Source: Streptomyces sp. NBC_00390 | GTDB taxonomy: Bacteria; Actinomycetota; Actinomycetes; Streptomycetales; Streptomycetaceae | Assembly: GCF_036057275.1 (NCBI RefSeq) | Contig: NZ_CP107945.1 | Span: 5,766,001 to 5,830,000, forward strand | Reading direction: 5' to 3' | DNA length: 64,000 nt | In this document: positions 8,369 to 50,608 of the stretch, piece by piece | Layout of the letters: every line of letters begins with the position of its first letter | Numbering within the stretch: position 1 is the first letter of the stretch | Notes under the pieces: model-generated | What the model was told of the DNA's origin: nothing | What the model saw: the letters and a program-made list of their open reading frames with translations, nothing else | Databases searched by the model: none | Position numbers and translations under genes: made by a program

Positions 8369-9085
8369 TCAGCGGCCGGTGGCGTCGGCCAGGGCGTCGT
8401 GCACCCCCGGCTCCTTCGCGCCGAGGAAGTGCGGGTCGGGCCGCAGCGCCGCGTCCAGCGACGCCTTGCCGGCCGCGAACATCTCCCGTACGCCGCCGTA
8501 GTACCAGGTCGCGTCGTGCGGCTCGACGACCCCGACGCCGTACGCATCGACCCCGGCCGCGTTGCACAGCGCGACGGCGCGCCGGATGTGGAAGCCCTGT
8601 GTCACCAGGACCGCGTGATCGACCCCGAAGATCTTCTTGGCCCGTACGCACGAGTCCCAGGTGTCGAACCCGGCGTAGTCGCTGACGATCAGCCTGTCCG
8701 GCACACCGCGCTCGGCGAGATAGGTGCGCATCGCGTCGGGCTCGTCGTACTCCGCCCGGCTGTTGTCGCCGGTGACCAGCACGACCTTGACCTTGCCCGT
8801 CCGGTACAGCTCGGCTGCGGTATCCAGGCGGTGGGCGAGATACGGCGTGGGCCGGCCGTTCCACAGCCCGGCCCCGAAAACGACGGCGACCTCCTGTGCG
8901 GGGACCTCGGCGGCGGTACGGACCCGGCTGTCGGCGACCGCGTGCATCCAGGTCGCGGGCGCGAGCGCGAACACGCACCCGAGCATGACCGCCTGCACGG
9001 TCCGGCGCCGGGCGCGCCGAGTACGCGGCAGCCGGGGTCTCGGCAGGCTCCTGGGCAGGCGCAGCTTCTTCAGAGGTCCCCTCAT
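8369..9085 (-). CDS. SanA/YdcF-like DUF218 membrane protein
   Basis: Predicted 238-residue protein with a basic N-terminus, one signal-anchor helix (about residues 30-52) and an extracytoplasmic DUF218 domain. Motifs are VAVVFGAGLWNGRPTPYLAHRLDTA, VLVTGDNS with an acidic AEYDEPDAM, and VTQGFHIRRAV. These match the SanA/vancomycin-sensitivity branch, whose members affect envelope permeability. The catalytic chemistry is not established. It is divergent from the gene at 9143 and shares that 57-base promoter gap. Confidence 0.85.
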   Translation of the reverse strand: MRGPLKKLRLPRSLPRPRLPRTRRARRRTVQAVMLGCVFALAPATWMHAVADSRVRTAAEVPAQEVAVVFGAGLWNGRPTPYLAHRLDTAAELYRTGKVKVVLVTGDNSRAEYDEPDAMRTYLAERGVPDRLIVSDYAGFDTWDSCVRAKKIFGVDHAVLVTQGFHIRRAVALCNAAGVDAYGVGVVEPHDATWYYGGVREMFAAGKASLDAALRPDPHFLGAKEPGVHDALADATGR

Positions 9086-9142
9086 GCCAGGTCAGACGTC
9101 GTCCCGCGGTAAAAGGTTCGGTCGGCCGCACGGCTTCCTGAC

Positions 9143-9928
9143 ATGATCACCGCCATGATGGCCGAGAGGGCGCTCGTGGGGGCCCGCAACAACGCAGAGT
9201 GGTGCGACGCGATGTGCCGCGCCCACGCAGTGCCGGGCGGCTTCGGCGCCCGCGCCTGGACCAGCGCGCGCCGGACACCGCTGCTGTACCCCGACGCGGT
9301 GACGCTGACCCGGGACGCGAGGGCCGACGACGTCCTCGGCACGGTCGACACGGCGAGCGCCGGCTGCTCGGTCAAGGACAGCTTCGCGGCCCTCGATCTG
9401 ACGGCGGCGGGGTTCGATGTGCTCTTCGAGGCGCAGTGGCTGCACCGCCCGGGCGATCTGCCCGCCCCCGCGGCGCCGCCGGAGACCGAGTGGAAGCAGG
9501 TGACGAGCCCCGCCGGACTCACCGAGTGGGCGGCCGCCTGGGACGGCGGACAGGGCCTGGCCGGCCTGTTCCGCCCGGAGCTCCTGTCCGACCCGGCGGT
9601 CACCTTCCTGGCCGCGCACTCCCGGTCCGGCACGCGACAGGGGCGCATCGTCGCCGGAGCCGTGGTGAACCTCGGCGCCGGGGCCGCGGGAGTCTCGAAC
9701 CTGTTCGCCGTGGACGACGACCTGGACGGCGCCTGGGCCGGCTGCCTGGGCGCCGTCGCCCGGCGGTGGCCGGGCACGCCCGTCGTCGGGTACGAGCACG
9801 GGGACGACCTGGACGCCGCGATCCGTCAGGGCTGCGCCCCGGCCGGGCCGCTGCGGGTCTGGCTCGCGTCCGGGCCGGCTGCAGACCATGCCGCCGCAAG
9901 CAGCGAACCGGCCGCCGCCGACACATAG
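9143..9928 (+). CDS. Uncharacterised protein with GNAT-like features
   Basis: Protein of 261 residues with no signal peptide or membrane helix. The N-terminal part (VGARNNAEWCDAMCRAHAVPGGFGARAWTS) is typical of actinobacterial hypothetical proteins. The C-terminal half resembles an acetyltransferase fold: RIVAGAVVNLGAGAAGVSNLFAVDDD followed by a segment ending PVVGYEHGDDLDAA. No acetyl-CoA loop is clear, so the function is left open. ATGs at 9143, 9155 and 9158 are possible starts. Its 3' end overlaps the convergent SWIM gene by 103 bp, which is unusual. Confidence 0.65.
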   Translation: MITAMMAERALVGARNNAEWCDAMCRAHAVPGGFGARAWTSARRTPLLYPDAVTLTRDARADDVLGTVDTASAGCSVKDSFAALDLTAAGFDVLFEAQWLHRPGDLPAPAAPPETEWKQVTSPAGLTEWAAAWDGGQGLAGLFRPELLSDPAVTFLAAHSRSGTRQGRIVAGAVVNLGAGAAGVSNLFAVDDDLDGAWAGCLGAVARRWPGTPVVGYEHGDDLDAAIRQGCAPAGPLRVWLASGPAADHAAASSEPAAADT

Positions 9929-11700
9929 ACCGCGGCCGCCAGCCATGCCGTCGCGAACGCGTCCGGGTCGCCGGGCAGCAGCCGCCCGAGGGCGTCGTGC
10001 CGTCGCTCGGCCGCTGCTGCGGCCAGCGCCCGTGCACAGTCCGCACCCGTGGTGAGGCCCACCGCCCGCAGCCGGCGCGGCAGTTCACCGTCGGCGGCCG
10101 CTGCCGTGACGGCCCGGCCGCCCGCGACCGCACGGTGGACGGCACGCCGCAGCAGATCCAGCTCGACCGGGAACGCGGGAGGCGGGGGGCACGGGGCGAA
10201 GACGGCCGACGGAGCGGGCACATCGGTGCGGTGAACCCGGCGCAGACCCAGGTCCACGCGTACGGTCCCGCCGTCGTGCCCCCTCCAGGCGGCGGCGAGC
10301 GCCCGTATGCCGTCCGGGCGGTCCGGCACGACCCGGCCGGCCAGCCGCAGCGCGAGCCCCGGGTACGAACCGAGCAGCCGGAGATTCTCCGCGTACGGCA
10401 ACTCGGGCCGCTCGTCCGGGGCGAGCAGCCGCAGCGTGGGGCCACCCGTGACGGCGAAGCCGCCCTGACCGGTCATGACTCCGGAGAGGAACAGCAGATC
10501 GCCGCCCGCCGGACGGTCGTCGGCCGGCAGATGCAGCCAGTCCAGCGCGGATGCGAGCTGGTCCGCGGGTGGTTTCTGCCACAGCGCATCGAGCGGCGGT
10601 TCGTGCCAGGCCGCACCGGGCGCCCGTACGGAACGCAGACGGGCACCCCCGCCGATCCTGCCCTCCGGTGACACGGTCGGGTCGGTGAGGATCACCGCGC
10701 CGCCGTCGCCCCACTCGCGCAGCGACAGCGCACAGCCACCGGGCACCGGTGACAGGGCTGCCGCGGCGGCCCGCTCGGGACCTCCGGGGGCGATGTCCGA
10801 GAGCGTGCGCAGCCCGCCGTCGGGAGCGAGTGCGTAGCCGGTCGCGCCCACATACCCGGAGGCGGTGACCACCGGTTCGGTGAACAGGCCGTGCAGACGC
10901 AGCGGTTTGGCGGGCCGGTAGGCACGGCGGGCGGGCGTGACGGCGTCGGCCGGGCGCCGCAGAAGACCGAGCAGACCCGCGAGCTCGGCCGAGAGCTCGG
11001 ACAGCCGGAAGCCGGGGTCGCCGGACCGCGCCTCGTCCAGCCGCCGGGCGATCCGCACCGCGGCAGCGGCGGGCAGCGGCAGCCCGGCGATGCGCGCCGA
11101 GTGCGCGGCGTGCAGCAGTTCCACCCGCTGTACGGCCCCGCCCCCGGCGACCCCCGCCACGAGCACGCCGGTGGCGGCGCGTCGCAGCCCGACGAGAGCG
11201 GACTGCTGCGCGGCGGTGAGGGGTTGGACGCCGCCGTCCGGCGCGTCCGGCTCCTTTGGTGCGGCGGCCGCGTCCGGCTTCTCCGGTACGGCGGCCGCGT
11301 CCGGCTCGTCCGACGTGGTGTGCGGCTCGTCCGGCGCGGTGTCCGGCTGAGGGCCTGTCCCGGCGGCCTGCTCCACGGCGGCCGGTCCGGCGGCCCCGGT
11401 TTCGGCCAGCGGCGCACTCGACAGCAGCGCGGCGCGGTGCAGGCAGGCAGGGGACAGCAGGCAGTCGCAGACGGCGTCCTCCGGGCGGGCCACGATCCCG
11501 TCCGTGACCTTCAGTGTCACGGACGTGTCCGCGTCCACCCGGACACGCACCCCGTCGTGCGTCGCCTCCACCGGCCAGCCGGAGGCCTTGGCGACGGCCG
11601 GGTCGATGCGCTTGCGCAGGCGCTGCGGGAGCAGTTCCAGCGCACCGGCCGCGACGTCGGCGGCGACCGGGGGCAGCGCGGGAGATGAGGGGCTGGTCAC
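9826..11700 (-). CDS. SWIM zinc-finger protein (last gene of MoxR/VWA operon)
   Basis: Protein of 624 residues. The N-terminus has a SWIM zinc finger with ligands Cys78, Cys80, Cys86 and His88 (CDCLLSPACLH). A Pro/Ala/Asp-rich linker follows, with tandem EPDAA-like repeats at about residues 120-155, then a long alpha/beta region without a recognised domain. SWIM fingers bind nucleic acid or protein. In E. coli the YehQ protein of the yeh operon is also a SWIM protein found next to an AAA+ ATPase and a VWA protein, which supports the same system here. The GTG start overlaps the VWA stop as GTGA, showing translational coupling. Confidence 0.8.
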   Translation of the reverse strand: MTSPSSPALPPVAADVAAGALELLPQRLRKRIDPAVAKASGWPVEATHDGVRVRVDADTSVTLKVTDGIVARPEDAVCDCLLSPACLHRAALLSSAPLAETGAAGPAAVEQAAGTGPQPDTAPDEPHTTSDEPDAAAVPEKPDAAAAPKEPDAPDGGVQPLTAAQQSALVGLRRAATGVLVAGVAGGGAVQRVELLHAAHSARIAGLPLPAAAAVRIARRLDEARSGDPGFRLSELSAELAGLLGLLRRPADAVTPARRAYRPAKPLRLHGLFTEPVVTASGYVGATGYALAPDGGLRTLSDIAPGGPERAAAAALSPVPGGCALSLREWGDGGAVILTDPTVSPEGRIGGGARLRSVRAPGAAWHEPPLDALWQKPPADQLASALDWLHLPADDRPAGGDLLFLSGVMTGQGGFAVTGGPTLRLLAPDERPELPYAENLRLLGSYPGLALRLAGRVVPDRPDGIRALAAAWRGHDGGTVRVDLGLRRVHRTDVPAPSAVFAPCPPPPAFPVELDLLRRAVHRAVAGGRAVTAAAADGELPRRLRAVGLTTGADCARALAAAAAERRHDALGRLLPGDPDAFATAWLAAAVYVSAAAGSLLAAAWSAAGPDASQTRSGPAGAQP

Positions 11701-14700
11701 CGGTGCGAACCTCCTACGCGTTCGCCGACCCAGCGGGCCAGCTCCAGAGGGCTGAGGGCGGCCACCGGCATGCCCGCGGCGACGAGCCTGCCCGCCACGC
11801 CCGCCGAGTAGCGCGGGCGGCCCTGGTCGTCCAGGGAGGCGCAGCCCAGCACATGGCAGCCCGCGTCGACCAGCGCCCGCACCTCGGACAGCAGCGGGCC
11901 GACCGGGCCGCCCTCCTCGAAGTCGCTGACCAGGACGACCAGCGTGCGCGACGGCACGGTCACCAGCTCGCGCGCGTGGCGCAGGCCGCGGGCGATGTTC
12001 GTACCGCCGCCGACGCGGACCTCGAGGAGCAGGCTCAGCGGGTCGTCGACATGGTCGGTCAGGTCGAGGACCTCGGTGGAGAACGCGACGAAGTGCGTGC
12101 TCAGGACAGGGACCCCGGCCAGGACGGAGGCAGTCAGCGCCGACCAGATGGTGGAGGCCTCCATGGAACCGGACACGTCGACGACGAGCACCAGCCGCCA
12201 GTCGGCGGCGCGCCGCGAGCGCGTGCGGAAGACCGGCCGCTCCGGCAGGACCGTGACGGCCCCGGTGGCGGGGTCCCGGCTCGCGGTCGCCAGGTTGGCC
12301 CGCAGCGTGCGCGGGAGATCCAGCGGGCCGCCGGGGCGGCGGGTGGGACGCGGGCGGGCGAGCCCGGTGAGCGCGGGGCGCAGCCGGTTCGCGAGCGCTG
12401 TGGTCAACTCCCTTACCAGCCGGGCCACCAGCGGCCGGAGCCGGGCGAGCTGCTGCTCGGGCATGCCGCCGGCGTAGGACAGGACCGTGCGCAGCAGCTC
12501 CACGGAGGGCCGCGCGGCGGCGGGGTCCACCTCGAGGGCGGCGTCGAGCCGTCCGGCGTCGGCGGCGGCTGCGAGCACCTCCTCACGCACACCGGGCCCG
12601 AAGAGGGCGGTGAGCTCCTCGGCCCAGGCCCGGACATCGGGGTACGGCGCCTCGGTGCCGCCGCCCTGACCGCTGCCGCCGTACCCGTCCTCACCGCGCG
12701 AGCCCTCACCGTGCCCGCGCCCGTACAACTCGTCGAGTGCGGTGGCCACCCGCCCGGCACTGCCGGTCAACTCCCGGCCCTGCCCGAGCAGAAGCCGCCA
12801 CCGCTCGCCGGCCCCGAGTCCGGCCGGGGCGGCAGGTGCCCCGCTCTCGGGGGTTCCGGGGTCGCCCGGGACACCGGACGGGGCTGTCTCCGGCCCGGTG
12901 GTCGCCGCGCCTGCGGGGGCGTCCGCCGCTGTCGCGGCACCCGACGCGGTGGTTCGGCCGGTCGTGGGTCCGGGTGGGGCGGGGGCCGCCCCGGGCGCGT
13001 TCGCGGCGGGGACGGCACCGGGACCGAGCGGTCCGACGAGGCCGTCGAGGCCGTGGCCGGACTCGGCACTGTGGCGGTGCGCTCGGTCACGCACGCCGAC
13101 GGCTGCCGCACCGGGGTTGCCCGCAGGGGCGGTTCCGGGATCGCCCGGCGGGGCGGTCTCCGGCCCGGTCGCCGCCGCGACCGGCGACAACTGCCTTGCC
13201 GTGAGCGTCTCGCGGCCAGTCAGGTCCGCATCGGCCAGGAGGGCCAGGATCACCGGGTCGGTGACGGGGCCCGTGAGAGTGCCGGCCGCCGTGCCTGTGC
13301 GATCCTCCACCACTGCGAGCAGGCGGCCGCGCGCCGCCGGGGCGAGTGCTTCGAATCCAGCGCGCAGTGCCGGGAGCCGGTTCAGGAAGGCACGGTCGGG
13401 GAGGGACTCCACCCGCTCCAGCAGCGGATCCAGCGCCCGGCCCGCCTCCAGCAGCGGGCCCGCCGCGAGCAGCGTGCCGCGCAGGAACCCGGTGAGTGCG
13501 GTCCGCAGTTCCGGTGATGTGGCGCTGTCCGTTCGGGACGCCAGCCGGGTGCCGAACTCGCCCGCGTCCCGCTGCCCCAGCAGCACCCGCGCCGCGCCGG
13601 CCGCACCCCGGATCAGCGGCGTCGCCGACGCGTCCAGACGGGCCAGCGCGTCGGCGAGGCGCAGACCGCCGCCGAGGGCATCGGCCCGGCCGGCGAGCGC
13701 CACCAGTGCACGGGCGTCGTCCGGCTCGGTGGAGCCCGCGAGCCCGTCGAGCGCGCGTACACCGGCCGCCGACAGCTCCTCGTACGCCGCGTCGACCGCG
13801 GCCCGCTCCCAGGCCTCGCCGAGACCCGCCAGATGCCCGGAGCGGACGCGGTCCAACAGGGTCATCCCGGCCAGCAGTTCGGGCAGCGTGCCGGTGGCCG
13901 GGAGCAGCACGGCCGCCTCGGCCAGCAGCGAGAGGGCTAGCTCGGGAAGCGCGCAGCGCGCTGCCTCGGTCAGCCCCTCGATGACGTCGGCGGCGGTCGG
14001 GCCACCCTGCCGCTGCTGCTCGTGGCGCCGCCGTCGCAGCATCCCTGCGGCGGCCTGTTCGAGGGTCACGCCGTGCGCGCCCGCCATGTCGAGCATCGCC
14101 GTCGTGGACGGTGACCAGGCCGCCGCCCAGCGGGTCGTCAGCGCGGCGGCGTCGCCGACACCGGCGACGTGGGACTCCTCCCCGTAAGGGACATGGCAGA
14201 GCGTCAGCCGTCTCAGACAGATCTCGCGGCGCCGGTCCAGGTCACTGCGCAGGATGTCGAGCCGCAGCTCGCGTCGCCCGGGTTCGCCGGGTCCGGGCAG
14301 GCGCAGCTCGCCGAGCAGCGCCTCGACCGCGGGACCGAGTCCGGAACGCGGCGTGCCCGGTGCGAGCCGCCCGAGCCGTGTGCCGACCAGGACCCGCTCC
14401 ATCGCGGCGGCCACCACCCGGCCACGCCCCAGCAACTGGCCCTGGGTGAGCACGGTCCGGGCCGCCTCCGCCAGTTCCCCCCGCCCGGCGGCGGGCAGCC
14501 CGCGCAGGGTCGCCAGGTCGCGTGCCATGCGCACCACTTCGCGGGCATCGGCGGGCCCGCTGGGATGCCCGGCGTCCCGCACGGCGGCACAGATCCGCAC
14601 GGCCGTGCCGGTCAGCAGCTCGTCCAGCCGCCTGTGATCGCCGGCCGCGTGGAACACACCGTGCTGCCACTCCGGATCCCGGATCCCGGCGGGGTAGCCG

Positions 14701-15899
14701 GAGCGCTCGTCGAGCAGGGCGTACGAGTACGGCACCAGCGAGGTGACGACCGCAGGTCCCTCCGCCGACGGTTCCGTCTCCGCCGGGGCGGTGACGGACC
14801 CCGGCAGCAGTGCGGGTGCGTGGAACGCACCGATCACGGCAGCCGCCCGCCGGCCTGTCCAGGCCCGCAGATGACGCCGCATGTTCGCCTCGCGCCGCAG
14901 GTCGTGGGTGTCGACGGCACCCGTGTCCGAGCGCAGTGCCCAGCCGACGGCCAGTGCGGCGCGCCGCAGCGCCTCGGGTTCGGAGCCGGGTGCGGTCGCC
15001 TCCACCAGCCGGTCCCACAGATCGTCCCCGGGCCGTCCGCCGGCCCTGGCCCGCAGCGCGGCCGCGAGCGCTCCGGCGCGGGTCGGCCTCGCGGTCCGCG
15101 GACCGGTCTGCGCACCGGATCGTGCGCCCGTACCCGACCGCGGCTGCGCGCCGGCAACCGGCCCCTGACCCGGTCCGGCGTCCGGTCCGGCGTCCGGGCC
15201 CGGACCGGCAGGAGGATCCTCGGCAGGACGGGCGACCGGATCCGTCCCGGCATCCGAACCGGCATCCCACCGGGCCGCGAGCGGCAGATCGAACGGCACC
15301 ACCTGCACGCCCGCCTCCCGTGCCCAGCGGATCGCCGCCATTTCCGGTGAGAACTCTGCGAACGGCAGGAACACCAGTCCGCGTCCGCCGTCTCCCCCAC
15401 TGCCCGCGAGCGCGACCGGTGGCACCGTCGCCGGGTCGGCCAGATGCTCCAGCCACGGCGCGAACTCCTCGGGCAGCTCGATGAACAGCACCTCCGGCGC
15501 CGCCTCGGCCAGCAGCGCGGGCACCGCCGCCGCGAGCGCGGGGGAGTGGTGCCGTACCCCGATCAGATACGGGTCACGGCACCCGGCGAGCTCCGCCACC
15601 GCCCGCGCGGGCGACGCCGATCCTCCGTCGGACCCGGGGGTGCCGGCTCCGGTGGGCCCGGGTGATCCATCGGCTTCCGATGGCCGGCGCGATGCGGCTG
15701 CTTCGGCGTGTCCGGCCGATCCGGCCTGTTCGCCCGATCCGACCGACGCGGCGGCTCCGGGTGACCTGTCGGCTCCGGAGGCGCCGGTGGATCCGGGTGG
15801 TCCGGGTGGCCAAGGGGGTCCCGGTGCCTCGGAGGGGCCGGAGGCACCGGACCGCCCCCGCGCTCCGAGCGACCCGCGAGGCTGCTCACCTGAGCTCAT
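11697..15899 (-). CDS. DUF5682-VWA fusion protein of the MoxR/VWA operon
   Basis: Very large protein of 1400 residues. A low-complexity Gly/Pro/Ser-rich N-terminus of about 100 residues is followed by a DUF5682-like domain starting YLIGVRHHSPALAAAVPALL, with VLFIELPEEFAPW and VQVVPFDLPLAARW. A second low-complexity linker lies around residues 900-1030. The C-terminus is a von Willebrand A domain with an intact MIDAS: D1241-x-S-x-S in DVSGSM, GGGTNI and SDFEEGG. VWA proteins act as substrate adaptors for MoxR ATPases. E. coli has these parts as separate YehM- and YehP-like proteins, so this is a natural fusion. The ATG at 15899 is chosen for its GGGAG ribosome-binding site; it overlaps the ATPase gene by 14 bp. 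Confidence 0.82.
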   Translation of the reverse strand: MSSGEQPRGSLGARGRSGASGPSEAPGPPWPPGPPGSTGASGADRSPGAAASVGSGEQAGSAGHAEAAASRRPSEADGSPGPTGAGTPGSDGGSASPARAVAELAGCRDPYLIGVRHHSPALAAAVPALLAEAAPEVLFIELPEEFAPWLEHLADPATVPPVALAGSGGDGGRGLVFLPFAEFSPEMAAIRWAREAGVQVVPFDLPLAARWDAGSDAGTDPVARPAEDPPAGPGPDAGPDAGPGQGPVAGAQPRSGTGARSGAQTGPRTARPTRAGALAAALRARAGGRPGDDLWDRLVEATAPGSEPEALRRAALAVGWALRSDTGAVDTHDLRREANMRRHLRAWTGRRAAAVIGAFHAPALLPGSVTAPAETEPSAEGPAVVTSLVPYSYALLDERSGYPAGIRDPEWQHGVFHAAGDHRRLDELLTGTAVRICAAVRDAGHPSGPADAREVVRMARDLATLRGLPAAGRGELAEAARTVLTQGQLLGRGRVVAAAMERVLVGTRLGRLAPGTPRSGLGPAVEALLGELRLPGPGEPGRRELRLDILRSDLDRRREICLRRLTLCHVPYGEESHVAGVGDAAALTTRWAAAWSPSTTAMLDMAGAHGVTLEQAAAGMLRRRRHEQQRQGGPTAADVIEGLTEAARCALPELALSLLAEAAVLLPATGTLPELLAGMTLLDRVRSGHLAGLGEAWERAAVDAAYEELSAAGVRALDGLAGSTEPDDARALVALAGRADALGGGLRLADALARLDASATPLIRGAAGAARVLLGQRDAGEFGTRLASRTDSATSPELRTALTGFLRGTLLAAGPLLEAGRALDPLLERVESLPDRAFLNRLPALRAGFEALAPAARGRLLAVVEDRTGTAAGTLTGPVTDPVILALLADADLTGRETLTARQLSPVAAATGPETAPPGDPGTAPAGNPGAAAVGVRDRAHRHSAESGHGLDGLVGPLGPGAVPAANAPGAAPAPPGPTTGRTTASGAATAADAPAGAATTGPETAPSGVPGDPGTPESGAPAAPAGLGAGERWRLLLGQGRELTGSAGRVATALDELYGRGHGEGSRGEDGYGGSGQGGGTEAPYPDVRAWAEELTALFGPGVREEVLAAAADAGRLDAALEVDPAAARPSVELLRTVLSYAGGMPEQQLARLRPLVARLVRELTTALANRLRPALTGLARPRPTRRPGGPLDLPRTLRANLATASRDPATGAVTVLPERPVFRTRSRRAADWRLVLVVDVSGSMEASTIWSALTASVLAGVPVLSTHFVAFSTEVLDLTDHVDDPLSLLLEVRVGGGTNIARGLRHARELVTVPSRTLVVLVSDFEEGGPVGPLLSEVRALVDAGCHVLGCASLDDQGRPRYSAGVAGRLVAAGMPVAALSPLELARWVGERVGGSHR

Positions 15900-17052
15900 C
15901 GCGCAGCTCCCACAGCGTCCGCCACAGCGGTGCCCCGCCCTCCGCCCGGCGCCGTACCGGCCCGTCCCAGTACCCGAGCAGCCGTGCATGATCGGCCGGA
16001 TCGTCCTTGCGCACGGTGCCGAGCAGATGGCCGGGCAGGGTGCGCGCCACGTCCCGCCCGGCACCCAGATACGCCGCCCCGAGCCCCATCGCCGTGGCGA
16101 CATGCACCGCCTCCGCCGTCGACATCACCGTCGAGGGCCGCTCCACCTCCCAGCCCTCGGCGCTGCGCCCGCTGCGCAGATCCCGGAACGCCGTCACCAG
16201 CGCCTCCAGCACGGCGTCGTCCACCGAGAACGCGGCCCCGGAGCGTGCCAGCGCCGCCGTGGCCTGACCGCGCACCAGTTCGGTCTCGGCCTCGATGTCG
16301 CCGATCGGGCCGACTTCCTCGAAGTTGAACCGGCGCTTCAGCGCCGCGGACATCTCCGACACGCCCTTGTCCCGCAAGTTGGCCGTGGCGATCAGCGTGA
16401 AGCCGGGCACCGCGTGCACGGTGCCGTCCGCGGCGTCACCACCGGCCAGTTCCGGTACGGACATCCGGCGCTCCGAGAGCAGCGAGACCAGCGCGTCCTG
16501 CACCTCGGGCAGACAGCGGGTGACCTCCTCGACCCGGGCCACCGCCCCCCGCGACATCGCGGTGAGCACGGGAGAGGGCACAAGTGCCTCCCGGCTCGGG
16601 CCCCTGGCGAGCAGCATCGCGTAGTTCCAGCCGTACCGCAGCTGGTCCTCCGTCGTACCCGCCGTGCCCTGCACGGTCAGCGTGCTCGTGCCGCAGACCG
16701 CGGCGGACAGCAGCTCCGACAGCATCGACTTGGCCGTGCCCGGCTCGCCGACCAGCAGCAGTCCACGCTCGCCCGCCAGCGTCACCACGCACCGCTCGAC
16801 CAGTGCACGGTCGCCGACGAACTTGCGCGACACCACCAGCTCTTGGCCGTCCGGCGCGCGCAGCGGCTCGCCGCCCGAGCCGCACACGAACAGCACGACG
16901 GCACGCGGCGTCATCCGCCAGCCCGGCGGCCTCGGCCCCTCGTCGTACCCGGCGAGGAACTCCAGCTCGTGCGCGTACCGGTCCTCCGGCAGCTCGACCT
17001 GCCGCCTCCCGCTCACCGCGACGCCACCGCCCGGCCCGTTCCGCGTGCTCAT
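15886..17052 (-). CDS. MoxR-type AAA+ ATPase
   Basis: Cytoplasmic AAA+ ATPase of 388 residues. Walker A is GEPGTAKS at 102-109. The Walker B equivalent is VARVEE, with Glu in place of the usual first Asp. Sensor 1 is in TLIATANLRDKG, and the arginine finger lies in ALKRRFNFEEVG. MoxR ATPases work as hexameric chaperones together with VWA proteins, and a VWA-domain gene is immediately downstream. The equivalent in the E. coli yeh cluster is YehL. The start overlaps the stop of the large DUF4132 gene as ATGA. What the complex remodels is not known. Confidence 0.88.
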   Translation of the reverse strand: MSTRNGPGGGVAVSGRRQVELPEDRYAHELEFLAGYDEGPRPPGWRMTPRAVVLFVCGSGGEPLRAPDGQELVVSRKFVGDRALVERCVVTLAGERGLLLVGEPGTAKSMLSELLSAAVCGTSTLTVQGTAGTTEDQLRYGWNYAMLLARGPSREALVPSPVLTAMSRGAVARVEEVTRCLPEVQDALVSLLSERRMSVPELAGGDAADGTVHAVPGFTLIATANLRDKGVSEMSAALKRRFNFEEVGPIGDIEAETELVRGQATAALARSGAAFSVDDAVLEALVTAFRDLRSGRSAEGWEVERPSTVMSTAEAVHVATAMGLGAAYLGAGRDVARTLPGHLLGTVRKDDPADHARLLGYWDGPVRRRAEGGAPLWRTLWELRDELR

Positions 17053-20000
17053 CGTGAACCTCCCCGGCCGCCACGGCCCTTGAACTCCTCGAACCCCGGT
17101 GCGTCACCGCTCACCACCCGCTGCCACGCCGCCGCGTACAGCTGCTCCACAGGCCGGTCGGGCACCACGAAGCGGTTCCCGATCGCGGGCAGCAGCGGTG
17201 CCTTCCAGCTCTCGGCAGGCAGCCGCGGGGTCTTCTGCTCCAGCCAGCCGCCGGGCAGGAACAGCGAACGTCCCGCCCGCGCCCGCTTGGCCTCCACCAC
17301 CAGGTCGGTGGCGGCCAGTTCGGCACGGGCCTTCTTCAGCCGGGCCGGCTTCCAGCCCGTCCACTCCGCCTGATTGCGGTCGGTCGGGTCGGGCAGCGCC
17401 AGCAGCATCAGATAGAGCGTGGCCGCGTCCTCCGAGAGCCCGAACCGCCCGGCCGCCTCCGTCACCAGCTTCGGCGCACTCACCTGCGGATGCTGCGGCG
17501 CACCGGCCGGCCCGTCGGCGGTGACCAGCGTCGTGAGCTCCTCGCCCAGGACCGTGCGCAGCGCCCTGAGCGCCACCGACTCGCCCGCGAGCCCGGACAG
17601 CAGTCGCAGCGCCGGATGGTCGGTGCCCCCTTCTCCGGAGACCGCTCCCGACAGGACCGCTGCGGGACGCACCCACACCGACTCCCACTCCGACCGGTAC
17701 CGCATCGGCGCGAGCACGATCGCGTCCGACAGCTCCACCAGACCACTGGGACGCGGCCCGGAGCCCGCGGTCGACGGCAGCCCGTGCGCCTCGCGCAGCC
17801 GCATCGACATCGACGCGCCGTCCTTGTCCCAGTCCACTCCCACGTGGAGCAGCAGCCCCGGGTCGGCCAGCCGCTCGCGCAGCATCCGCAGCGTGACGGG
17901 CAGCACCTCGCGCAGCGGGTCGCCGTACGGGAGCCGGTAGGCGAGCCAGCGCAGCATGGACACGTACGAGGTCAACTCGGATGTGGTGAGCAGCAGCTGT
18001 GGATCCACGGGCATGGGTCCGTCGTCGCCGCACGGCTGCTCGGTCCGGCCGGTGATCACCGGCTGCGAGTGCGGGTTCAGCACGGAGTCGAGGACCGTAC
18101 CCGAGCCGACCTCGCTCACCATCCGGGCGATCAGCGCGTCGGGAGCAACGCGCCGCTTCCCGCGCGCGGCGACCCAGGCTACGGTCAGCGGCGCCAGATC
18201 GAAGCCGTCCGTCCACAGCTCGCTCACGCGCTGCGGCTCGGCGGGCAGCAACTGTGCGGCGAAGGCGGTCCGTTCCGCAGGCTTCATGGAGGCCAGCACC
18301 CCGCGTCCGGCCTGTGCGTGCGCGCTCTTGGCGCCGAGCGGGGCGAGATACTCCGCAGGGAGCAGCCCGTCCCTGCCGTAGCCGTTCAGACCGGGCAGCC
18401 CGAGCAGCAGCAGCGCGCCGGTCACGGCCCCGACCCCGACCAGGGCGGCGAACTCCTGTGCCTGCTCCGGCCGGTAGGGCACCGGTCCGCGGGCCCGCAC
18501 CTCGTCGACCAGCCGGCGCACGGCCTCCGCGCGCACCGGGTCGCCGGCCGCTCCCAGCACCTCCGACTCGATGAGTGTGAAGCCGTCCCAGGCGCCGAAG
18601 GCGCCCGCAGGGTCGTACTCGATGGCGTTGAAGAAGTCGTGCCGCTCGTCCGTGCGTTGGCACGCCACGATCAGCAGACGGCGCTCGCCGGCGTGCCGAA
18701 CCTCACCCAGCCGCTGGGTGCCGTTGGGGACCCGTTCCGCCCGCAGCTGGACGATCCGCAGCCTGCCCCGCGGATCGGCGAGCACCGCGTCACCGTCCTC
18801 CGGCGCACCCGCACGCACGTCGAGGGCGGCGTCGAGGAACTCCAGCAGCGCGGCCCGCTCCGCCTCGTCCGTCGTCGGCGACGCCGCGCGCACCGCGGTG
18901 GCCGCAAGGCCTGCGCCGGGCAGCGTCAGCCAGCCCACGCCGGTCCCGGCCAGCGGCACTCTGCCGGCCTCGCCGTCAGGCGCCAGCACCGTGCGCAGCG
19001 CCCGCAGCTGGTCCATGACCGTGGTGGGGCTGCGCTCCCAGGAACGGACTCCGTAGAAGTGCGCGGATCCGGTGAATCCGCTGAGTGCGTCACGCAGCCG
19101 GCCGTCGTTCGCATGCCGCACCGCCTGCTTCGGCCCGGTCTCTTCGGCCACCTTCGGTGCCTTCGCCGAGCGCTCCGCGATGACGCCGATACGCCTGGCG
19201 TGCCGCGCGGCTTCCGCCACGTGACCGGCCACACCCGCGACAAGGGACGGGTGGATGACCGCCGGCAGCAACTCCCTGACGGCCGCTTGTGGTTCAGCCC
19301 CGGCCGCCACGGCCGCCAGCAGAACTTCCGCGTCCTTGTCCGTGACCGACCGCAGCGCCGCCGAGCCCTGCTCGTCACGCGGCCGCAGTGCATGCCAGTG
19401 GCTCACCGGTGGCACCAGGGACGTGCCCTCGGCGACGGCCCTGCCCCGGTCGCCTTCCTGCAGGGCGGCCAGCGCCACACCCTCGGTGTCGTACAGATGG
19501 ATCACGGCGTCGAAGCCGCGCGTCTCGCGCGGATGCAGGACGGCCCCGCCCGGCAGCCGTAGCGGCGGCAGCGGAATGCCGTGCGTCAGACGATCGGTCC
19601 GGCTGTCCGGGGGCACCGGGACGGCCGGGCTGCGGGTGCCGTCCACGCTGCACGCGGTGAGCGTCCCGGCCTGCGGGTCGTGCCGCACCCACCAGCCGAC
19701 CAGGCCGTCCTTGCTGCCGAACGGCGAGGACTCCAGGCCCGGCTGCACCGGCAGCAGCCGGCAGGCGTGGGCCAGAAGGACGCTCCCGCCTCCTGGGGCC
19801 GCTCCCTCACCCTCGGCCAGTGCCGAGTCGAAGAAGGCGGGCACCGAGACCCTGCCCCTGCGCGCGGACCCAGGGTCGTAGTCCCACCATTCCCTGTCGT
19901 GCAGCACCCACAAGGAGAGGCCGTCCGACGCGACCGGCCGCCGCTCGGGCGCGAACGAGGTGTCGCCCGGCTGGACCGGCCTGCCGCCGAACGTACGGCT

Positions 20001-22115
20001 GCCGTCGGGCAGTTGCAGAGTCGCGTGCTGGGCGGAGGTCCAGTGGTCGTGCAATTCGCCGCCGGGCCTGAACACATCGGCCGGCCGCCCCGTCCACACT
20101 GCGCGTCGGTCCGCGCCGTGCCCGTTGGCGACCAGCCACTGGCCGCCCACATGGCGCACGGTCGGGACGTCGTACGAGGACGTGGACGCCGCCGGCAGCG
20201 TGAGGTCGCGGCGTTCCAGTACGGCGTCCGGTCCCACCAGCGCCACCCGGGCGCCGACCCGGACGATCAGCGCGGGCCAGGCGTCCGCCATCCGGTAGAA
20301 CGCGTCGGACAGATAGCCGTGCCGTTGCCCCGCCGCCATCGGATTGACCTTGCCGAGCCCTTCCAGCGCCTCCTCCAGCGCCGGCCAGCCCAGCTCGTCG
20401 AAGATCCCCGCGCGCAGGGTGCGTGCCAGGGCCCCGGCGGGGGAGAACGCGGCGATACGCTCCACGGCCTGAGGCGCCGCCGACAGCACCGCGTGCGAGG
20501 AGAACTTCGCCACCCGGCTCAGCAGCTTCCCGAGCCCAGGCAGGCCCAGCGGCCGGTCCAGCTCGCCGGCTCGTTCGGCGAGCCAGGACGCCAGCACCGT
20601 GCGCAGCGCCGGGTGCTCCGCGATCTGCTGGAGCCGCGCCGACCCTTCATTGGTACCCGCCACCCGCTCCACCCCGCCGCGCAGCAGGGGGCCGAACCGG
20701 GGATCGGTGCTCAGCGCCGCCAAGTCCCTGCGCCCGTCACCCTCGTCCGTCAGCCAGGGGCCGAGCTCCAGGTTCTCCGCGCCGGCCGAGGGCGGCTCGA
20801 CGGGCACGCCCGATGCCAGACACGCGTCGAGCAGATCCAGGTCGACCGTGGTGCGCCAGCCGCCGCCCTTCATCAGGCGCACCGGCGTGCCCTCGGCGAC
20901 CAGGCGCGCCGCCAGTCGCTCCAGCAGGGTCAGTTCGGCCGCGAGCCTTTTCATACCGCGCCAGCTGCGCTGCCGGTGCCGTGCCCACGACGACAGCCAC
21001 TCGGCCGCAGCCACGGTCCCGTCCAGCAGCAGCTCGATCGCGCCGCATCTGTCCAGCACATCGAGCCACGCCGCGTCGAACTGCTCCGGATGGTCGCCGC
21101 CCGCATCAGGGAACAGCTCCAGCAGCCGCTCCCGTACCGCCCGGTCCTCGGCGGCCGCCGCGGTCAGTGCCGGCAGCGCCGCCTTCCAGAAGGCCGCGGG
21201 CGCGCGGTTCACCGCGCCGGTGTGGACGATCCGTGCGATCAGCGCACGCTCCTCGCCCGCCGCGTCGAGCCCCGCGCTCTTCGCGAGCCGCCGCAGGTCC
21301 TCGACCATGCCCGTGTACGGTGCCAGGCCGGCCGCGCACCGCTCCAGGCACACCGTACGGAACTGCGCGTACGCCTCCTCGGACGCCAGCCGGACGGCCA
21401 GCCCCTTCGCGTGGTCCCGCAGGGACTTGGCGCTGAGCGCGCCCGCCCCGGCGAACTCCAGGAACACCTCGCGCAGCCGGTCCTCGTCGACCGCCAGCGC
21501 GTGCCGCTGCTCGGCCGCCCGCGCCTTGCCGAAGAACACCGAAGCCTGCTGCTTCGCGTCCACGGCCAGGAGCAGCCGTCCGGCCTGCTCGTAGAACGTC
21601 GGAAGGAAATGCGGCACCGAACGGTCCAGCCGCGCCCCGATGTCGTCGAACCCCTCCTTGGCCAGGCCCGGTTTGGTCGCGACGAGCCGTGTGAGGCGCT
21701 CCATCTCCTTGACCACGGCCAGCGCGTGATGGCCGCGGTCAGGGTCGTGGACCAGCGCCCAGGCGGGGAACCCGAGCGACCGGCGCTTCACGCGCCCCAC
21801 TGGCTCGGACCCTGCTCCCGTGAAGCCCAGGTACTCCAGGGCGAGATCCTCGGCCGGCCCGATGGCCCCGGGCACCAGCCGCACCACCGTGCGCCCCTGG
21901 AGCACCGGGTGCTCGTACGCCCGCGCCGTCAATCCGTCACCGGCGCCGTCCCCGCTGTCACCGCCGCCGTCCCCGGAATCGCCGCCGTCTGCGCCGAGCG
22001 GCAGTACCGCACCGGCCTCGAGGAGCTGCGCCGCGCCCAGCCCCGCGTCCTGCTGTCCGCCCACCGGTTCCCCCGATTCCGCCGTCGCCGATCCAGCCGC
22101 TCCCGTCGTCGTCAC
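17049..22115 (-). CDS. Giant DUF4132-family protein
   Basis: Protein of 1688 residues, the largest of the operon, with no signal peptide or membrane helix. Long stretches look like helical repeats (for example ERLTRLVATKPGLAKEG and the segment around LRRLAKSAGLDAAGEE). A middle beta-rich part may be propeller-like, with recurring W-x-YDPG and GSRTFGGRPVQPG-type strands. It most resembles the DUF4132/MolR-YehI group in size, context and style, but I cannot point to a catalytic motif. GTG at 22115 overlaps the upstream stop as GTGA. In E. coli YehI accompanies the same ATPase, VWA and SWIM partners. Confidence 0.65.
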   Translation of the reverse strand: MTTTGAAGSATAESGEPVGGQQDAGLGAAQLLEAGAVLPLGADGGDSGDGGGDSGDGAGDGLTARAYEHPVLQGRTVVRLVPGAIGPAEDLALEYLGFTGAGSEPVGRVKRRSLGFPAWALVHDPDRGHHALAVVKEMERLTRLVATKPGLAKEGFDDIGARLDRSVPHFLPTFYEQAGRLLLAVDAKQQASVFFGKARAAEQRHALAVDEDRLREVFLEFAGAGALSAKSLRDHAKGLAVRLASEEAYAQFRTVCLERCAAGLAPYTGMVEDLRRLAKSAGLDAAGEERALIARIVHTGAVNRAPAAFWKAALPALTAAAAEDRAVRERLLELFPDAGGDHPEQFDAAWLDVLDRCGAIELLLDGTVAAAEWLSSWARHRQRSWRGMKRLAAELTLLERLAARLVAEGTPVRLMKGGGWRTTVDLDLLDACLASGVPVEPPSAGAENLELGPWLTDEGDGRRDLAALSTDPRFGPLLRGGVERVAGTNEGSARLQQIAEHPALRTVLASWLAERAGELDRPLGLPGLGKLLSRVAKFSSHAVLSAAPQAVERIAAFSPAGALARTLRAGIFDELGWPALEEALEGLGKVNPMAAGQRHGYLSDAFYRMADAWPALIVRVGARVALVGPDAVLERRDLTLPAASTSSYDVPTVRHVGGQWLVANGHGADRRAVWTGRPADVFRPGGELHDHWTSAQHATLQLPDGSRTFGGRPVQPGDTSFAPERRPVASDGLSLWVLHDREWWDYDPGSARRGRVSVPAFFDSALAEGEGAAPGGGSVLLAHACRLLPVQPGLESSPFGSKDGLVGWWVRHDPQAGTLTACSVDGTRSPAVPVPPDSRTDRLTHGIPLPPLRLPGGAVLHPRETRGFDAVIHLYDTEGVALAALQEGDRGRAVAEGTSLVPPVSHWHALRPRDEQGSAALRSVTDKDAEVLLAAVAAGAEPQAAVRELLPAVIHPSLVAGVAGHVAEAARHARRIGVIAERSAKAPKVAEETGPKQAVRHANDGRLRDALSGFTGSAHFYGVRSWERSPTTVMDQLRALRTVLAPDGEAGRVPLAGTGVGWLTLPGAGLAATAVRAASPTTDEAERAALLEFLDAALDVRAGAPEDGDAVLADPRGRLRIVQLRAERVPNGTQRLGEVRHAGERRLLIVACQRTDERHDFFNAIEYDPAGAFGAWDGFTLIESEVLGAAGDPVRAEAVRRLVDEVRARGPVPYRPEQAQEFAALVGVGAVTGALLLLGLPGLNGYGRDGLLPAEYLAPLGAKSAHAQAGRGVLASMKPAERTAFAAQLLPAEPQRVSELWTDGFDLAPLTVAWVAARGKRRVAPDALIARMVSEVGSGTVLDSVLNPHSQPVITGRTEQPCGDDGPMPVDPQLLLTTSELTSYVSMLRWLAYRLPYGDPLREVLPVTLRMLRERLADPGLLLHVGVDWDKDGASMSMRLREAHGLPSTAGSGPRPSGLVELSDAIVLAPMRYRSEWESVWVRPAAVLSGAVSGEGGTDHPALRLLSGLAGESVALRALRTVLGEELTTLVTADGPAGAPQHPQVSAPKLVTEAAGRFGLSEDAATLYLMLLALPDPTDRNQAEWTGWKPARLKKARAELAATDLVVEAKRARAGRSLFLPGGWLEQKTPRLPAESWKAPLLPAIGNRFVVPDRPVEQLYAAAWQRVVSGDAPGFEEFKGRGGRGGSR

Positions 22116-22987
22116 CGCAGCTCCCCCTCCTCGTCACCGGTCACGCGCCCGGCGTACACCAGCGCCGCCATCCGTTCGCCCTCCGACCAGGCCACCGGCC
22201 CGACCTCGCCGAGCGGCACCTGAAGCCCGTGCCGGTCCCGCCACTCCAGTGACCCCGTCAGCGACTCGGCGTCCGGATACTCGTCGCCCAGCCAGTACGC
22301 CGCCTCCAGCGGACGGCCGAACTCCACCAGCGGGCACACCGCCTCACCGCCGCGCACCCGGTAGCCGAGCGCCACCGCCCGTGCGGTCGCATGCCGCAGC
22401 TGGGCGAACTTCCCGTTCTCGTAAGCGCGCCAGTGCAGGCCGCCGGCGTCGTCCGGGCGCCGCCACACTTCCCGGAACAACTGCTCCACGCCTTGCTCGA
22501 CCTCGAGCTCCAGCGCGAACTCCCGCAGGTCGTCCAGGTCTTCCAGCAGCACCGGATGCGGTATCAGCACCGTCTCGCACGCGAGCCGCTTCGAGTCGCC
22601 GTCCAGGTCGACGATCCCGGCGCCCTTCTGCGGGTCGGCGTCCCGCAGGAATCCCGCCCGCGCCATGTCCGCCGACCCGTCGGCCGCCGGCGGAGCCACC
22701 ACCAGATCGCGCAGCGCCGCCTGCCACGCCGGGTCCGGCCACACCCTGGCCAGCAGCGCCACAGGCACCGGCAGCGAGCGCACCAGCCATGTGTCCACCT
22801 GCTCCCGGCACTCGCGCGCGTGCCGCTCCAGCCACTCGGCGAGCTGCCGCAGCCGCACCACCGCCGCGTCGTCCTTCAGCTTGGGCGGCACCTGCTTCAG
22901 CGTGCGCCCCGCGGCGTTGCGGCACAGCACATGCGTGCCGTCCAGCGTCACGGCGTAGCCGCCGTGCTCCGTCTCGATCCAGCCCAT
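22112..22987 (-). CDS. DUF4132-domain protein, first gene of MoxR/VWA operon
   Basis: Protein of 291 residues. The C-terminal half contains VEQLFREVWRRP, then ENGKFAQLRHATARAVALGY, resembling the core of the DUF4132 domain that ends MolR/YehI-type proteins. The N-terminal part is helical with several Trp residues. In enterobacteria this domain sits at the C-terminus of one long protein; here it is a separate gene ahead of the giant protein. It is followed by a GTGA overlap. Upstream is a 7-bp inverted repeat and a -10-like hexamer that may control the whole operon. No enzymatic motif is evident. Confidence 0.65.
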   Translation of the reverse strand: MGWIETEHGGYAVTLDGTHVLCRNAAGRTLKQVPPKLKDDAAVVRLRQLAEWLERHARECREQVDTWLVRSLPVPVALLARVWPDPAWQAALRDLVVAPPAADGSADMARAGFLRDADPQKGAGIVDLDGDSKRLACETVLIPHPVLLEDLDDLREFALELEVEQGVEQLFREVWRRPDDAGGLHWRAYENGKFAQLRHATARAVALGYRVRGGEAVCPLVEFGRPLEAAYWLGDEYPDAESLTGSLEWRDRHGLQVPLGEVGPVAWSEGERMAALVYAGRVTGDEEGELR

Positions 22988-23295
22988 GGCGAGAGCGCCT
23001 CCCCGACGGTCCCCGACCGCCCACGACCCTGCTCGGAACCCCGATCGGTTCCGTTGGCGATCACAGTAGGTGAGGGGACTGACAACGCCGCCGGGAGGCA
23101 GTGAGCCTGTGGAAAAGACCCGTCACCCTCACGCAACAACCCGGCAACCTGCGCGGGTCACCATCGGTGCATGACGGAGCCGGAACACCTTCGTGACTCC
23201 CTGCCCCTCGACTCGACCGCGCAGCTGCTCACGCGCATCACCGCTCAGCTCGGCACCCAGCTGAGTCACGTCAGACTGAACGGAACCCGCCGCGT
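22988..23295. other. Divergent control region between MoxR/VWA operon and chelatase
   Basis: 308 bases between divergent genes. It holds the inverted repeat at 23034-23053. A short frame starts at ATG 23171, with a CACCAT hexamer 6 nt before it, and runs out of frame into the chelatase gene (see findings). No other gene is supported. Confidence 0.5.
23034..23053. promoter_or_regulatory. Inverted repeat upstream of the MoxR/VWA operon
   Basis: CGGAACC-N6-GGTTCCG, a perfect 7-bp inverted repeat, 47-66 bases upstream of the operon's first start codon. On the minus strand a TACTGT -10-like hexamer (23068-23063) lies just upstream of it, so the repeat would cover the transcription start. It may be an operator; the binding protein is unknown. 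Confidence 0.4.
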
Positions 23296-38926: not shown

Positions 38927-38999
38927 TCCCCTGTAGCTCAATTGGCAGAGCAGCCGGCTGTTAACCGGCAGGTTACTGGTTCGAGTCCAGTCGGGGGAG
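38927..38999 (+). tRNA. tRNA-Asn (anticodon GTT)
   Basis: Complete 73-nt cloverleaf. The acceptor TCCCCTG (38927-38933) pairs with 38992-38998, discriminator G38999. The anticodon stem GCCGG/CCGGC surrounds loop CTGTTAA with GTT at 38960-38962. The T-loop is TTCGAGT. No CCA is encoded. The second copy follows 5 bases later. Confidence 0.97.
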
Positions 39000-39004
39000 C
39001 GCGA

Positions 39005-39077
39005 TCCCCTGTAGCTCAATTGGCAGAGCATTCGGCTGTTAACCGGAGGGTTGCTGGTTCGAGTCCAGCCGGGGGAG
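39005..39077 (+). tRNA. tRNA-Asn (anticodon GTT), second copy
   Basis: 73-nt copy of the preceding tRNA with a few changes in the anticodon and T stems (TTCGG/CCGGA stem with one T-G pair). Anticodon GTT at 39038-39040. Probably cotranscribed with the first copy and ended by the hairpin at 39090-39112. Confidence 0.97.
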
Positions 39078-39089
39078 CAGCTGAGAAAG

Positions 39090-39112
39090 AGGACCCCTCG
39101 AGGGTCCTTTTT
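39090..39112 (+). terminator. Intrinsic terminator of tRNA-Asn pair
   Basis: AGGACCC (39090-39096), loop CTCGA, GGGTCCT (39102-39108), then TTTT. It is a classical stem plus T-tract, 13 bases past the second tRNA-Asn. Confidence 0.85.
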
Positions 39113-39251
39113 CGCGTCTTCCGCACGGCATCCGGGGCGGCGACCAGCGCAGTCTTCATGGTCACGGGTTGCCGACCATCCGAAGCGAGAGATCGTATGA
39201 CCGGCTATGCTGCGGCAGACGGCGCGCACAAATGTGCGCGACGCGCCGTTA

Positions 39252-39325
39252 GGGGCGGTAGCTCAGCCGGTTAGAGCAGCGGACTCATAATCCGTCGGCC
39301 GTGGGTTCGAGTCCCACCCGCCCCA
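39252..39325 (+). tRNA. tRNA with anticodon CAT (elongator Met or Ile2)
   Basis: Complete 74-nt cloverleaf: acceptor GGGGCGG (39252-39258) pairs with CCGCCCC (39318-39324), discriminator A39325. Anticodon stem GCGGA/TCCGT, loop CTCATAA, anticodon CAT at 39286-39288. T-loop TTCGAGT. The first acceptor pair is G-C, so it is not initiator tRNA. Elongator Met and Ile2 (lysidine-modified) cannot be separated by eye. Confidence 0.93.
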
Positions 39326-50559: not shown

Positions 50560-50570
50560 GAACGGGCGAA

Positions 50571-50608
50571 GACGAAGGGCCCGGTACCGCCGTACCGGGC
50601 CCTTCGTC
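50571..50608. terminator. Perfect 17-bp bidirectional terminator
   Basis: Arms 50571-50587 and 50592-50608 are perfectly complementary with a 4-nt loop, between the convergent protease and carboxyltransferase genes. Confidence 0.8.

Follow-up and report, generated by a model that had tools for sequence, protein, structure and literature searches.

The window analyzed here is a 64,000-nucleotide stretch of Streptomyces sp. NBC_00390 (contig NZ_CP107945.1, positions 5,766,001 to 5,830,000; genome size 8.69 Mb), and the system in question is an operon of five minus-strand genes that contains a MoxR-type AAA+ ATPase, a fusion of DUF5682 with a VWA domain, a SWIM-like protein, a short DUF4132 protein and a giant protein. 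Two features are central to our interpretation: a promoter motif of DNA-damage type directly upstream of the first gene, and what appears to be a Tiki/TraB-like domain at the start of DUF5682. With about even confidence, we favor the reading of its products as a MoxR-VWA chaperone-hydrolase, induced by genotoxic stress, whose task would be to remodel or cleave protein bound to DNA. The five genes, with the expectation values (E) of their family matches, are:

22112-22987, minus strand: gene 1, short DUF4132 protein, 291 amino acids (PF13569, E 6.3e-27).
17049-22115, minus strand: gene 2, giant protein, 1688 amino acids, with an N-terminal alpha-solenoid, a beta-propeller-like middle and a conserved C-terminal block (no Pfam family; AlphaFold model).
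15886-17052, minus strand: gene 3, MoxR AAA+ ATPase of the YehL subfamily, 388 amino acids (AAA_5, E 2.4e-38).
11697-15899, minus strand: gene 4, DUF5682-VWA fusion, 1400 amino acids (DUF5682, E 6.5e-190; VWA_CoxE, E 1.4e-66).
9826-11700, minus strand: gene 5, SWIM-like protein, 624 amino acids (SWIM match below cut-off and a CxC zinc-ligand motif).

The genes run from 22987 to 9826 and, as the first-pass annotation of this DNA had described, successive genes overlap by 4, 4, 14 and 4 base pairs (bp) in the list of open reading frames (ORFs). The 14-bp overlap between genes 3 and 4 depends on the choice of start: read from its first possible start, the gene 4 ORF covers 11697-16103 and 1468 amino acids, while a start at 15899 yields 1400. 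The family assignments made at that stage for DUF4132, MoxR, DUF5682 and VWA were confirmed by the profile scan at the values listed above. The closest named relatives of the operon are mostly from Streptomyces.

Comparison of operon upstream regions brought out an over-represented TTGTCAG word, which in the window is part of the following element:

23063-23085, minus strand: RecA-NDp/PafBC-type promoter motif (TTGTCRG-N10-TANNNT), exact, 75 bp upstream of gene 1 and the sole exact match in the window.

The motif is present in all 77 first-gene upstream regions compared, exactly in 51 and with a single mismatch in 26, whereas with up to one mismatch allowed it was found in only 8 of 476 upstream regions of flanking genes and in 3 of 303 upstream regions of the other four operon genes. 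Exact copies were absent from 30 dinucleotide shuffles of the whole set and from the antisense orientation. Upstream of the operon, five other promoter patterns (SigR, SigB, LexA-like and two more) did not rise appreciably above background. PafBC is known to activate DNA-damage genes through the RecA-NDp promoter (PMC6789036, in passages that do not spell out the consensus letters). The motif thus stands upstream of the operon and is conserved in its relatives, from which we infer control by PafBC.

The same motif marks a second DUF5682 system of the genus, which we refer to as the core locus. There, a DUF5691-SWIM arm is divergent from a MoxR-DUF5682-VWA arm beside sucC-sucD, an arrangement seen in all 19 genomes checked (the window's own and 18 picked). 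An exact motif lies between the divergent SWIM and MoxR genes and points at SWIM in 18 of these 19 genomes; locus L113 has none, and L112 has a second copy in the opposite orientation. In the window's genome the core locus is located as follows:

G000:C1:3362450-3366200, continuing to about 3369160 (L003 9060-17161): core DUF5682 locus with an exact damage-type motif in its divergent promoter region.

Genome-wide, the window's genome contains 38 exact motif sites, both DUF5682 loci included, compared with two for the backwards pattern. Five of ten scanned proteins downstream of such sites are RecA, a RecD2-type helicase, MgsA/RarA, a uracil-DNA glycosylase and an exonuclease-BRCT protein, and the remainder comprise ribosomal protein S6, a SUKH-4 protein and three proteins that matched no family. 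These ten were chosen by eye from 20 fetched of the 38 sites, with one stretch (L159) taken on the wrong side, and the share of repair genes does not describe a random sample because the proteins were chosen after their first residues had been inspected. Two of the sites deserve separate mention: the SUKH-4 family protein (L156 66-1295; G000:C1 near 1742634) lies directly downstream of an exact motif, and a protein at L155 1160-2215 (G000:C1 near 1568577), also downstream of a damage-type motif, has DCSGSM at its start, which by eye resembles a VWA motif (Pfam gave no match at 1e-5). Independently, PMC8533742 reports that depletion of DdrO, the DNA-damage repressor of Deinococcus radiodurans, strongly raises expression of a DUF4132 operon there. 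It adds that E. coli MolR, which has a WGR domain in common with another of the induced proteins, was described as part of the LexA regulon.

The second line of evidence concerns gene 4, in which the following features could be placed:

14790-15608, minus strand: apparent N-terminal Tiki/TraB-like alpha/beta domain of DUF5682, residues about 98-370 (mean predicted local distance difference test score, pLDDT, of the model 86.4; profile match to TraB).
15546-15560, minus strand: GxxH motif 1 (GVRHH, residues 114-118); R, H and H in 14 of 14 diverse sequences, the first G in 13 of 14.
15477-15479, minus strand: conserved Glu 141; 14 of 14 diverse sequences and 89 of 89 rows of a wider set.
14892-14894, minus strand: conserved Arg 336 (RREANMR); 14 of 14 and 89 of 89.
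14820-14831, minus strand: GxxH motif 2 (GAFH, residues 357-360); G and H in 14 of 14 and 89 of 89.
11727-12395, minus strand: VWA_CoxE domain (Pfam), with the metal ion-dependent adhesion site (MIDAS) sequence DVSGS at 12165-12179.

According to the relevant part of PMC6254334, members of the Tiki/TraB superfamily use a His-Glu pair and a second His to cleave ester or peptide bonds. Among nine TraB/GumN proteins, G38xxH41, E67, R228 and G249xxH252 are invariant, and DUF5682 has the same elements, namely two GxxH motifs, a Glu and an Arg, in the same order. Spacing is similar from H to E (24 in DUF5682, 26 in TraB) and identical from R to H (24 in both), while the E to R distance is longer in DUF5682 (195 vs 161). 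Twelve residues are invariant in 14 of 14 DUF5682 sequences (R116, H117, H118, E141, S184, E186, D204, R336, E337, M340, G357 and H360), these sequences being unselected and drawn from Actinomycetota, Pseudomonadota, Bacteroidota and Deinococcota. The wider set of 89 rows consists of the same 14 and others kept only if they showed a G-x-R-H-H pattern, with seven proteins entered twice, so invariance of the first motif is circular there because the rows were chosen by it; invariance of the Glu, the Arg and the second GxxH is independent of that selection.

Profile comparison of DUF5682 with TraB gave a score of 32.2, as compared with a maximum of 20.4 for 150 column shuffles, 13.6 for a reversed alignment and 16.7-19.7 for three unrelated profiles. 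EreA, whose profile was built on three ORFs from eight loci, reached 25.7, and even TraB against EreA, an accepted pair within the superfamily, scores no more than 19.7 with alignments this small. Similarity to TraB thus exceeds chance, locally only. In the AlphaFold model (pLDDT 86.4), strands and helices alternate in an alpha/beta domain that has the motifs at or near its strand ends and is followed by long helical repeats. The best structural match of this domain in a VIA search is chain 7w5z_E (Z 9.5, root-mean-square deviation (rmsd) 4.5 over 185 residues, model residues 8-273); a designed protein reaches an equal Z but matches the helical half only. 7w5z is Tetrahymena complex IV, which is reported to include a TraB-family subunit (PMC10060162, figure legend). 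Overall, DUF5682 appears to start with a Tiki/TraB-like domain that has a complete putative active site and would be expected to act as a hydrolase. The DUF5682 profile had no match among sequences of solved structures, and PF01963 none in 11 near genomes.

Several observations weigh against the combined reading of damage control and protein cleavage. The 77 loci with the motif are close relatives and not independent of each other, and the RecA-NDp consensus used for comparison is taken to be TTGTCRGTG-N8-TANNNT. The kinship with TraB comes down to a local match of 33 columns, from the Arg to the second GxxH, plus the motifs, with an hhalign probability of 16%; in global mode, hhalign aligned DUF5682 with neither TraB nor EreA, and the first GxxH/Glu pair could be aligned with YbaP alone (P 0.06 and 0.10). 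A Foldseek search with the DUF5682 model found nothing with an E of 0.001 or lower. Confirmation of chain 7w5z_E as the TraB-family subunit failed; neither YbaP nor the TraB profile reached it by sequence, so its identity depends on PMC10060162, which names such a subunit in the complex. DNA binding by the giant is at most suggested, and two points about the S. coelicolor protein SCO4804, discussed next, count likewise: its assignment is likely and derives from synteny and size, not from its own sequence, and its mutation left chromosome supercoiling unchanged (a section heading of PMC8120823).

SCO4804 is the basis of a different explanation, in which DUF5682 would be a catalytically inert scaffold or a transcription regulator and the system would tune gene expression rather than process protein. 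We consider this unlikely. PMC8120823 places SCO4804 (815 amino acids) between the hypothetical genes SCO4803 and SCO4805, with the secreted SCO4806 next, and reports that its disruption lowers TopA, that its overexpression raises topA and gyrB transcription and that, together with adjacent genes, it is induced eightfold on TopA depletion; it is interpreted there as a topA activator with predicted DNA-binding regions. SCO4809 is sucD and SCO4808 a succinyl-CoA synthase subunit, and by core-locus synteny and size SCO4803-SCO4805 are most likely MoxR, DUF5682 and VWA. A long helical-repeat C-terminal part in the DUF5682 model would also suit a scaffold. However, the putative active-site residues are invariant in all 14 sequences from several phyla, which would be unusual for a pure scaffold, and DUF5682 is fused to or adjoins VWA and the MoxR ATPase. 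The TopA results for SCO4804 also count in favor of the stress-induced machine. A damage promoter would offer a simple explanation for induction of that locus under topological stress. On this view, SCO4804 would belong to a MoxR-VWA machine as one of its subunits and would not act as a transcription factor.

The ATPase itself is of YehL type. Gene 3 has an AAA_5 core and is 46% identical to YehL (E 1e-96) compared with 17% to RavA (E 0.11), these being the two of seven MoxR subfamilies compared, and it is accompanied by VWA, DUF5682 and SWIM genes as in E. coli, the SWIM match in the window being below cut-off. YehL is one of the seven named MoxR subfamilies, and both the subfamily and the yeh cluster were known before (PMC3893208). 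The nucleotide-binding motif is:

16726-16749, minus strand: Walker A of gene 3, GEPGTAKS, conserved in 80 of 81 homologues.

The sensor-1 motif is conserved in 81 of 81 homologues. In the VWA domain, the metal site is retained as DVSGS in 63 of 63 aligned homologues, with the T motif in 51 of 63 and SDFEEG in 61 of 63.

Gene 5 is named SWIM-like because its SWIM model stays under the Pfam cut-off (14.7 bits vs 19.6, E 0.023), yet a SWIM-type motif is conserved in 54 of 60 aligned homologues as C-x-C-x(4-6)-C-x-H, misses including sequences with cut starts. The earlier SWIM call therefore stands for the motif and falls short for the domain model. It also lines up with the SWIM of E. coli YehQ, although the overall probability of that alignment is poor. 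The motif is located as follows:

11437-11469, minus strand: CxCx5CxH zinc-ligand motif of gene 5.

At the thresholds applied, none of Pfam, PADLOC and NCBIfam gave a match for the giant. Its AlphaFold model, covering residues 41-1200 (pLDDT 85.9), shows an alpha-solenoid, then a propeller-like beta region and then mixed parts, and three regions can be distinguished:

20355-21722, minus strand: alpha-solenoid (TPR-like) part, residues about 132-587 (model secondary structure; TRC35/Get4 nearest).
19458-20294, minus strand: beta-rich, propeller-like part, residues about 608-886 (model strands; Nup133 propeller match).
17196-17495, minus strand: most conserved block, residues about 1541-1640 (conservation; winged-helix-like by eye).

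TRC35/Get4 are the nearest solved folds of the solenoid (Z 12.6, rmsd 5.4 over 171 residues), which may reflect a common helical arrangement, and the propeller-like part matches the Nup133 propeller at a middling score that may be generic (Z 7.2, rmsd 6.3 over 256). The C-terminal block resembles HTH_36 weakly in three of 30 members (best E 0.034), and one homologue of the giant carries the annotation 'DNA-binding protein'. Profile searches of solved structures with the giant returned no matches, profiles of its C-terminus and of DUF4132 nothing usable, and Foldseek on the giant model no match at E 0.001 or better. The giant has no profile similarity to YehI, YehQ or the DUF5691 region of the core locus (single-sequence templates), and hhalign did not align gene 1 with YehI, though both match PF13569. 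There are also compact relatives in which a DUF4132-like N-terminus is fused to or abuts a giant-like protein, with no MoxR match within 17-19 kb; this N-terminus has no Pfam match and was recognized by tblastn in L118 and L127 and by eye in L116:

L116 8305-12387; L127 4933-9183; L118 12348-12764 with 8605-12348: compact giant-like proteins, as a fused ORF or abutting ORFs.

These relatives suggest that genes 1 and 2 work together as a single functional unit. DUF4132 of any kind was found in 88 of 150 genomes of the same genus.

Under the favored reading of a stress-induced chaperone-hydrolase, DNA damage or topological stress would activate PafBC, which, judging by the motif, would switch on the promoter at 23063-23085. 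From what is known of the family, a hexamer of the YehL-type MoxR protein would serve as the motor. The VWA/DUF5682 subunit would couple the client to this hexamer, its N-terminal domain being a predicted hydrolase. The giant and DUF4132 protein, with their solenoid, propeller-like region and possible C-terminal winged helix, and the SWIM-like protein may recruit nucleic acid and/or clients and keep the complex at nucleoprotein. Clients on damaged or topologically stressed DNA could then be extracted, remodeled or cleaved. Searches of the open-access literature for DUF5682/DUF5691, MoxR with DUF5682, the yeh names and DUF4132 combinations retrieved no study of the system's function. A damage-type promoter on two systems of the family in one genus, together with the Tiki/TraB-like signature, would give this orphan machine a concrete and testable role.

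A bolder and quite unlikely version of this idea is that the YehL-MoxR/DUF5682/VWA/SWIM family as a whole is a widespread machine for repair of DNA-protein crosslinks or stalled nucleoprotein, in which the AAA+ motor would feed a Tiki/TraB-type protease. Trapped proteins, for example topoisomerase or gyrase adducts, would be its clients, while the SWIM, DUF4132 and giant proteins would hold DNA. Such a system would resemble the arrangement of p97 and SPRTN.

Conservation of the five-gene block was surveyed in the 80 loci with the best matches to the window's MoxR, which is a biased sample of close relatives, using our own gene finder based on codon composition for gene calls outside the window. 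All five genes are present in 68 of the 80 loci, in the same order by best-match positions, in other actinomycetes, and the block is not due to chance because it recurs in this way, bearing out the co-occurrence expected in the first-pass annotation. Eleven of the 12 incomplete loci lie on sequence shortened by contig ends. A Kineosporia locus (L069) has MoxR, DUF5682-VWA and SWIM only and lacks close relatives of genes 1 and 2. The term 'fully overlapping' used earlier holds for the window but is not a fixed property of every junction, since a 4-bp overlap is possible in only part of the loci (DUF4132-giant 75 of 77, giant-MoxR 48 of 79, MoxR-DUF5682 17 of 78, DUF5682/VWA-SWIM 60 of 67). Two side observations concern the giant in this survey: in L075 an extra gene (8370-9971, 533 amino acids, weak SUKH similarity) sits between giant and MoxR and overlaps MoxR by 4 bp, and in L044 and L048 the gene finder recovered the giant in pieces, perhaps as a result of frameshifts or sequence errors.

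The distribution of the operon is relevant to a further alternative, an anti-phage or conflict system of the MoxR-VWA 'ternary' kind in which ATPase and VWA would set the threshold for an effector after invasion. The giant's C-terminal profile matches 68 of 150 same-genus genomes, 57 of them strongly (at least 220 bits), and across the phylum 7 of 296 genomes in 2 of 198 genera, which is the patchy presence expected of such a system. In chosen genomes with one main contig, the five-gene type is nearer the contig end than the core locus in 17 of 20 and lies within the outer 20% in 16 of 20, whereas the core locus does so in 5 of 27. Rounded values were used for four of the lengths, G054 among the 20 has only a split match that falls short of the 220-bit group, and rotated deposited chromosomes may blur the count. 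The operon is also carried on plasmids, and a Streptomyces atratus plasmid copy adjoins an IS110 transposase. The genes around the block vary from locus to locus, their largest family being present in 13 of 82 sources, and the giant evolves quickly: median identity over 300 random pairs each is 44% for the giant and 45% for SWIM compared with 78% for MoxR, 62% for DUF5682-VWA and 61% for DUF4132. The propeller-like element also recalls the propeller ternary systems treated in parts of PMC7159879. On the other hand, PADLOC (2023 library, E 0.1) had no match for the five proteins except a weak one for the ATPase (E 0.008), and any bpMoxR match stayed below cut-off in the Pfam scan. In a defense-island test the flanking genes gave mainly generic matches (75 of 226 flank genes, the 75 used being from 90 taken at random; no matched control set). 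The five genes are constant, with no swapped effector domains seen across the close relatives surveyed. Sister systems are core: among 5426 E. coli genomes, 5162 have at least 80% coverage of yehLMPQ, and 146 of 150 genomes of the window's genus contain DUF5682 in one form or another. A damage promoter accounts directly for a link to stress. The conflict explanation, which we regard as improbable, keeps some weight because the distribution is patchy and mobile and the giant fast-evolving. As for the earlier suggestion of a 'conflict/stress response', stress fits best and can now be specified as DNA damage by the promoter motif, while the conflict half is weakened by the PADLOC result, the flanks and the core sister systems.

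On one side, the operon is neighbored by a molybdopterin oxidoreductase (5462-7603) and an MDMPI_N protein; on the other, by eye, by a sirohydrochlorin-chelatase-like gene, a dGTPase-like gene and DNA primase. The first of these neighbors raises the option of a CoxD/CoxE- or NorQ/NorD-like maturation chaperone for metallo-enzymes, which would insert metal into or activate an oxidoreductase such as this molybdopterin enzyme. The VWA domain belongs to the VWA_CoxE family, roles of this kind are already described for MoxR proteins in sections of PMC3893208, and parts of PMC8533742 suggest a molybdopterin link for a DUF4132 protein and cite a role of MolR in molybdate. We judge this option very unlikely: the molybdopterin neighbor recurs in only 4 of 82 survey sources, the window included (short flanks), molybdate-metabolism genes were unchanged on DdrO depletion in the same parts of PMC8533742, and the promoter is of damage type. 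Elsewhere in the window, a tandem tRNA-Asn pair and a tRNA-Met are grouped at 38927-39327, and very long ORFs on opposite strands (46834-50610 and 46639-50559) cover one stretch, where composition favors the plus strand.

Several known systems share parts of the operon. The MoxR-VWA ternary conflict systems (VMAP, iSTAND, FtsH and beta-propeller types; PMC7159879) likewise combine MoxR and VWA with a third component and can include a propeller-like element. In contrast, the Pfam scan of the window's five proteins names no VMAP, iSTAND, FtsH or variable effector, and the propeller-like part is found in the giant and not on the VWA protein. As the giant has no family, it could still be a divergent third component. 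The term YehL does not occur in PMC7159879.

E. coli RavA-ViaA is also a MoxR and VWA pair, proposed to aid complex maturation (PMC3893208, in part). It differs by the low identity of RavA to gene 3 given above. Tiki/TraB/EreA/ChaN hydrolases resemble DUF5682 in having GxxH, Glu, Arg and GxxH in the same order; in DUF5682, the E to R distance is longer, helical repeats and a VWA domain follow and a MoxR ATPase is tied in. RavA-ViaA is not known to have DUF5682 or SWIM partners.

The DUF5691 type of the core locus is also found on Rhizobium, Hymenobacter, Deinococcus and Methylosinus plasmids, with SWIM unannotated in the first two, and a Sinorhizobium plasmid has MoxR, DUF5682, DUF4132, VWA and SWIM together. 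Within the window's genus, loci L094 and L095 have a YehL relative (64% identity) beside a YehI-like gene and represent a third type. The core locus resembles the operon in combining MoxR, DUF5682 and VWA with a SWIM motif and in carrying the damage-type promoter motif, and differs in that DUF5691 replaces DUF4132 and the giant, the VWA protein is separate, the arms are divergent and the position by sucCD is core. Lastly, kinship with the E. coli yeh cluster, already proposed in the first-pass annotation, is borne out by the order yehI-yehK-yehL-yehM-yehP-yehQ, in which DUF4132, MoxR (46% identity), DUF5682, VWA and SWIM follow each other as in the window. The operon differs from this cluster in fusing DUF5682 to VWA, in adding the 1688-amino-acid giant, in carrying DUF4132 on a protein of 291 rather than 1210 amino acids and in having no YehK-sized protein among its five.

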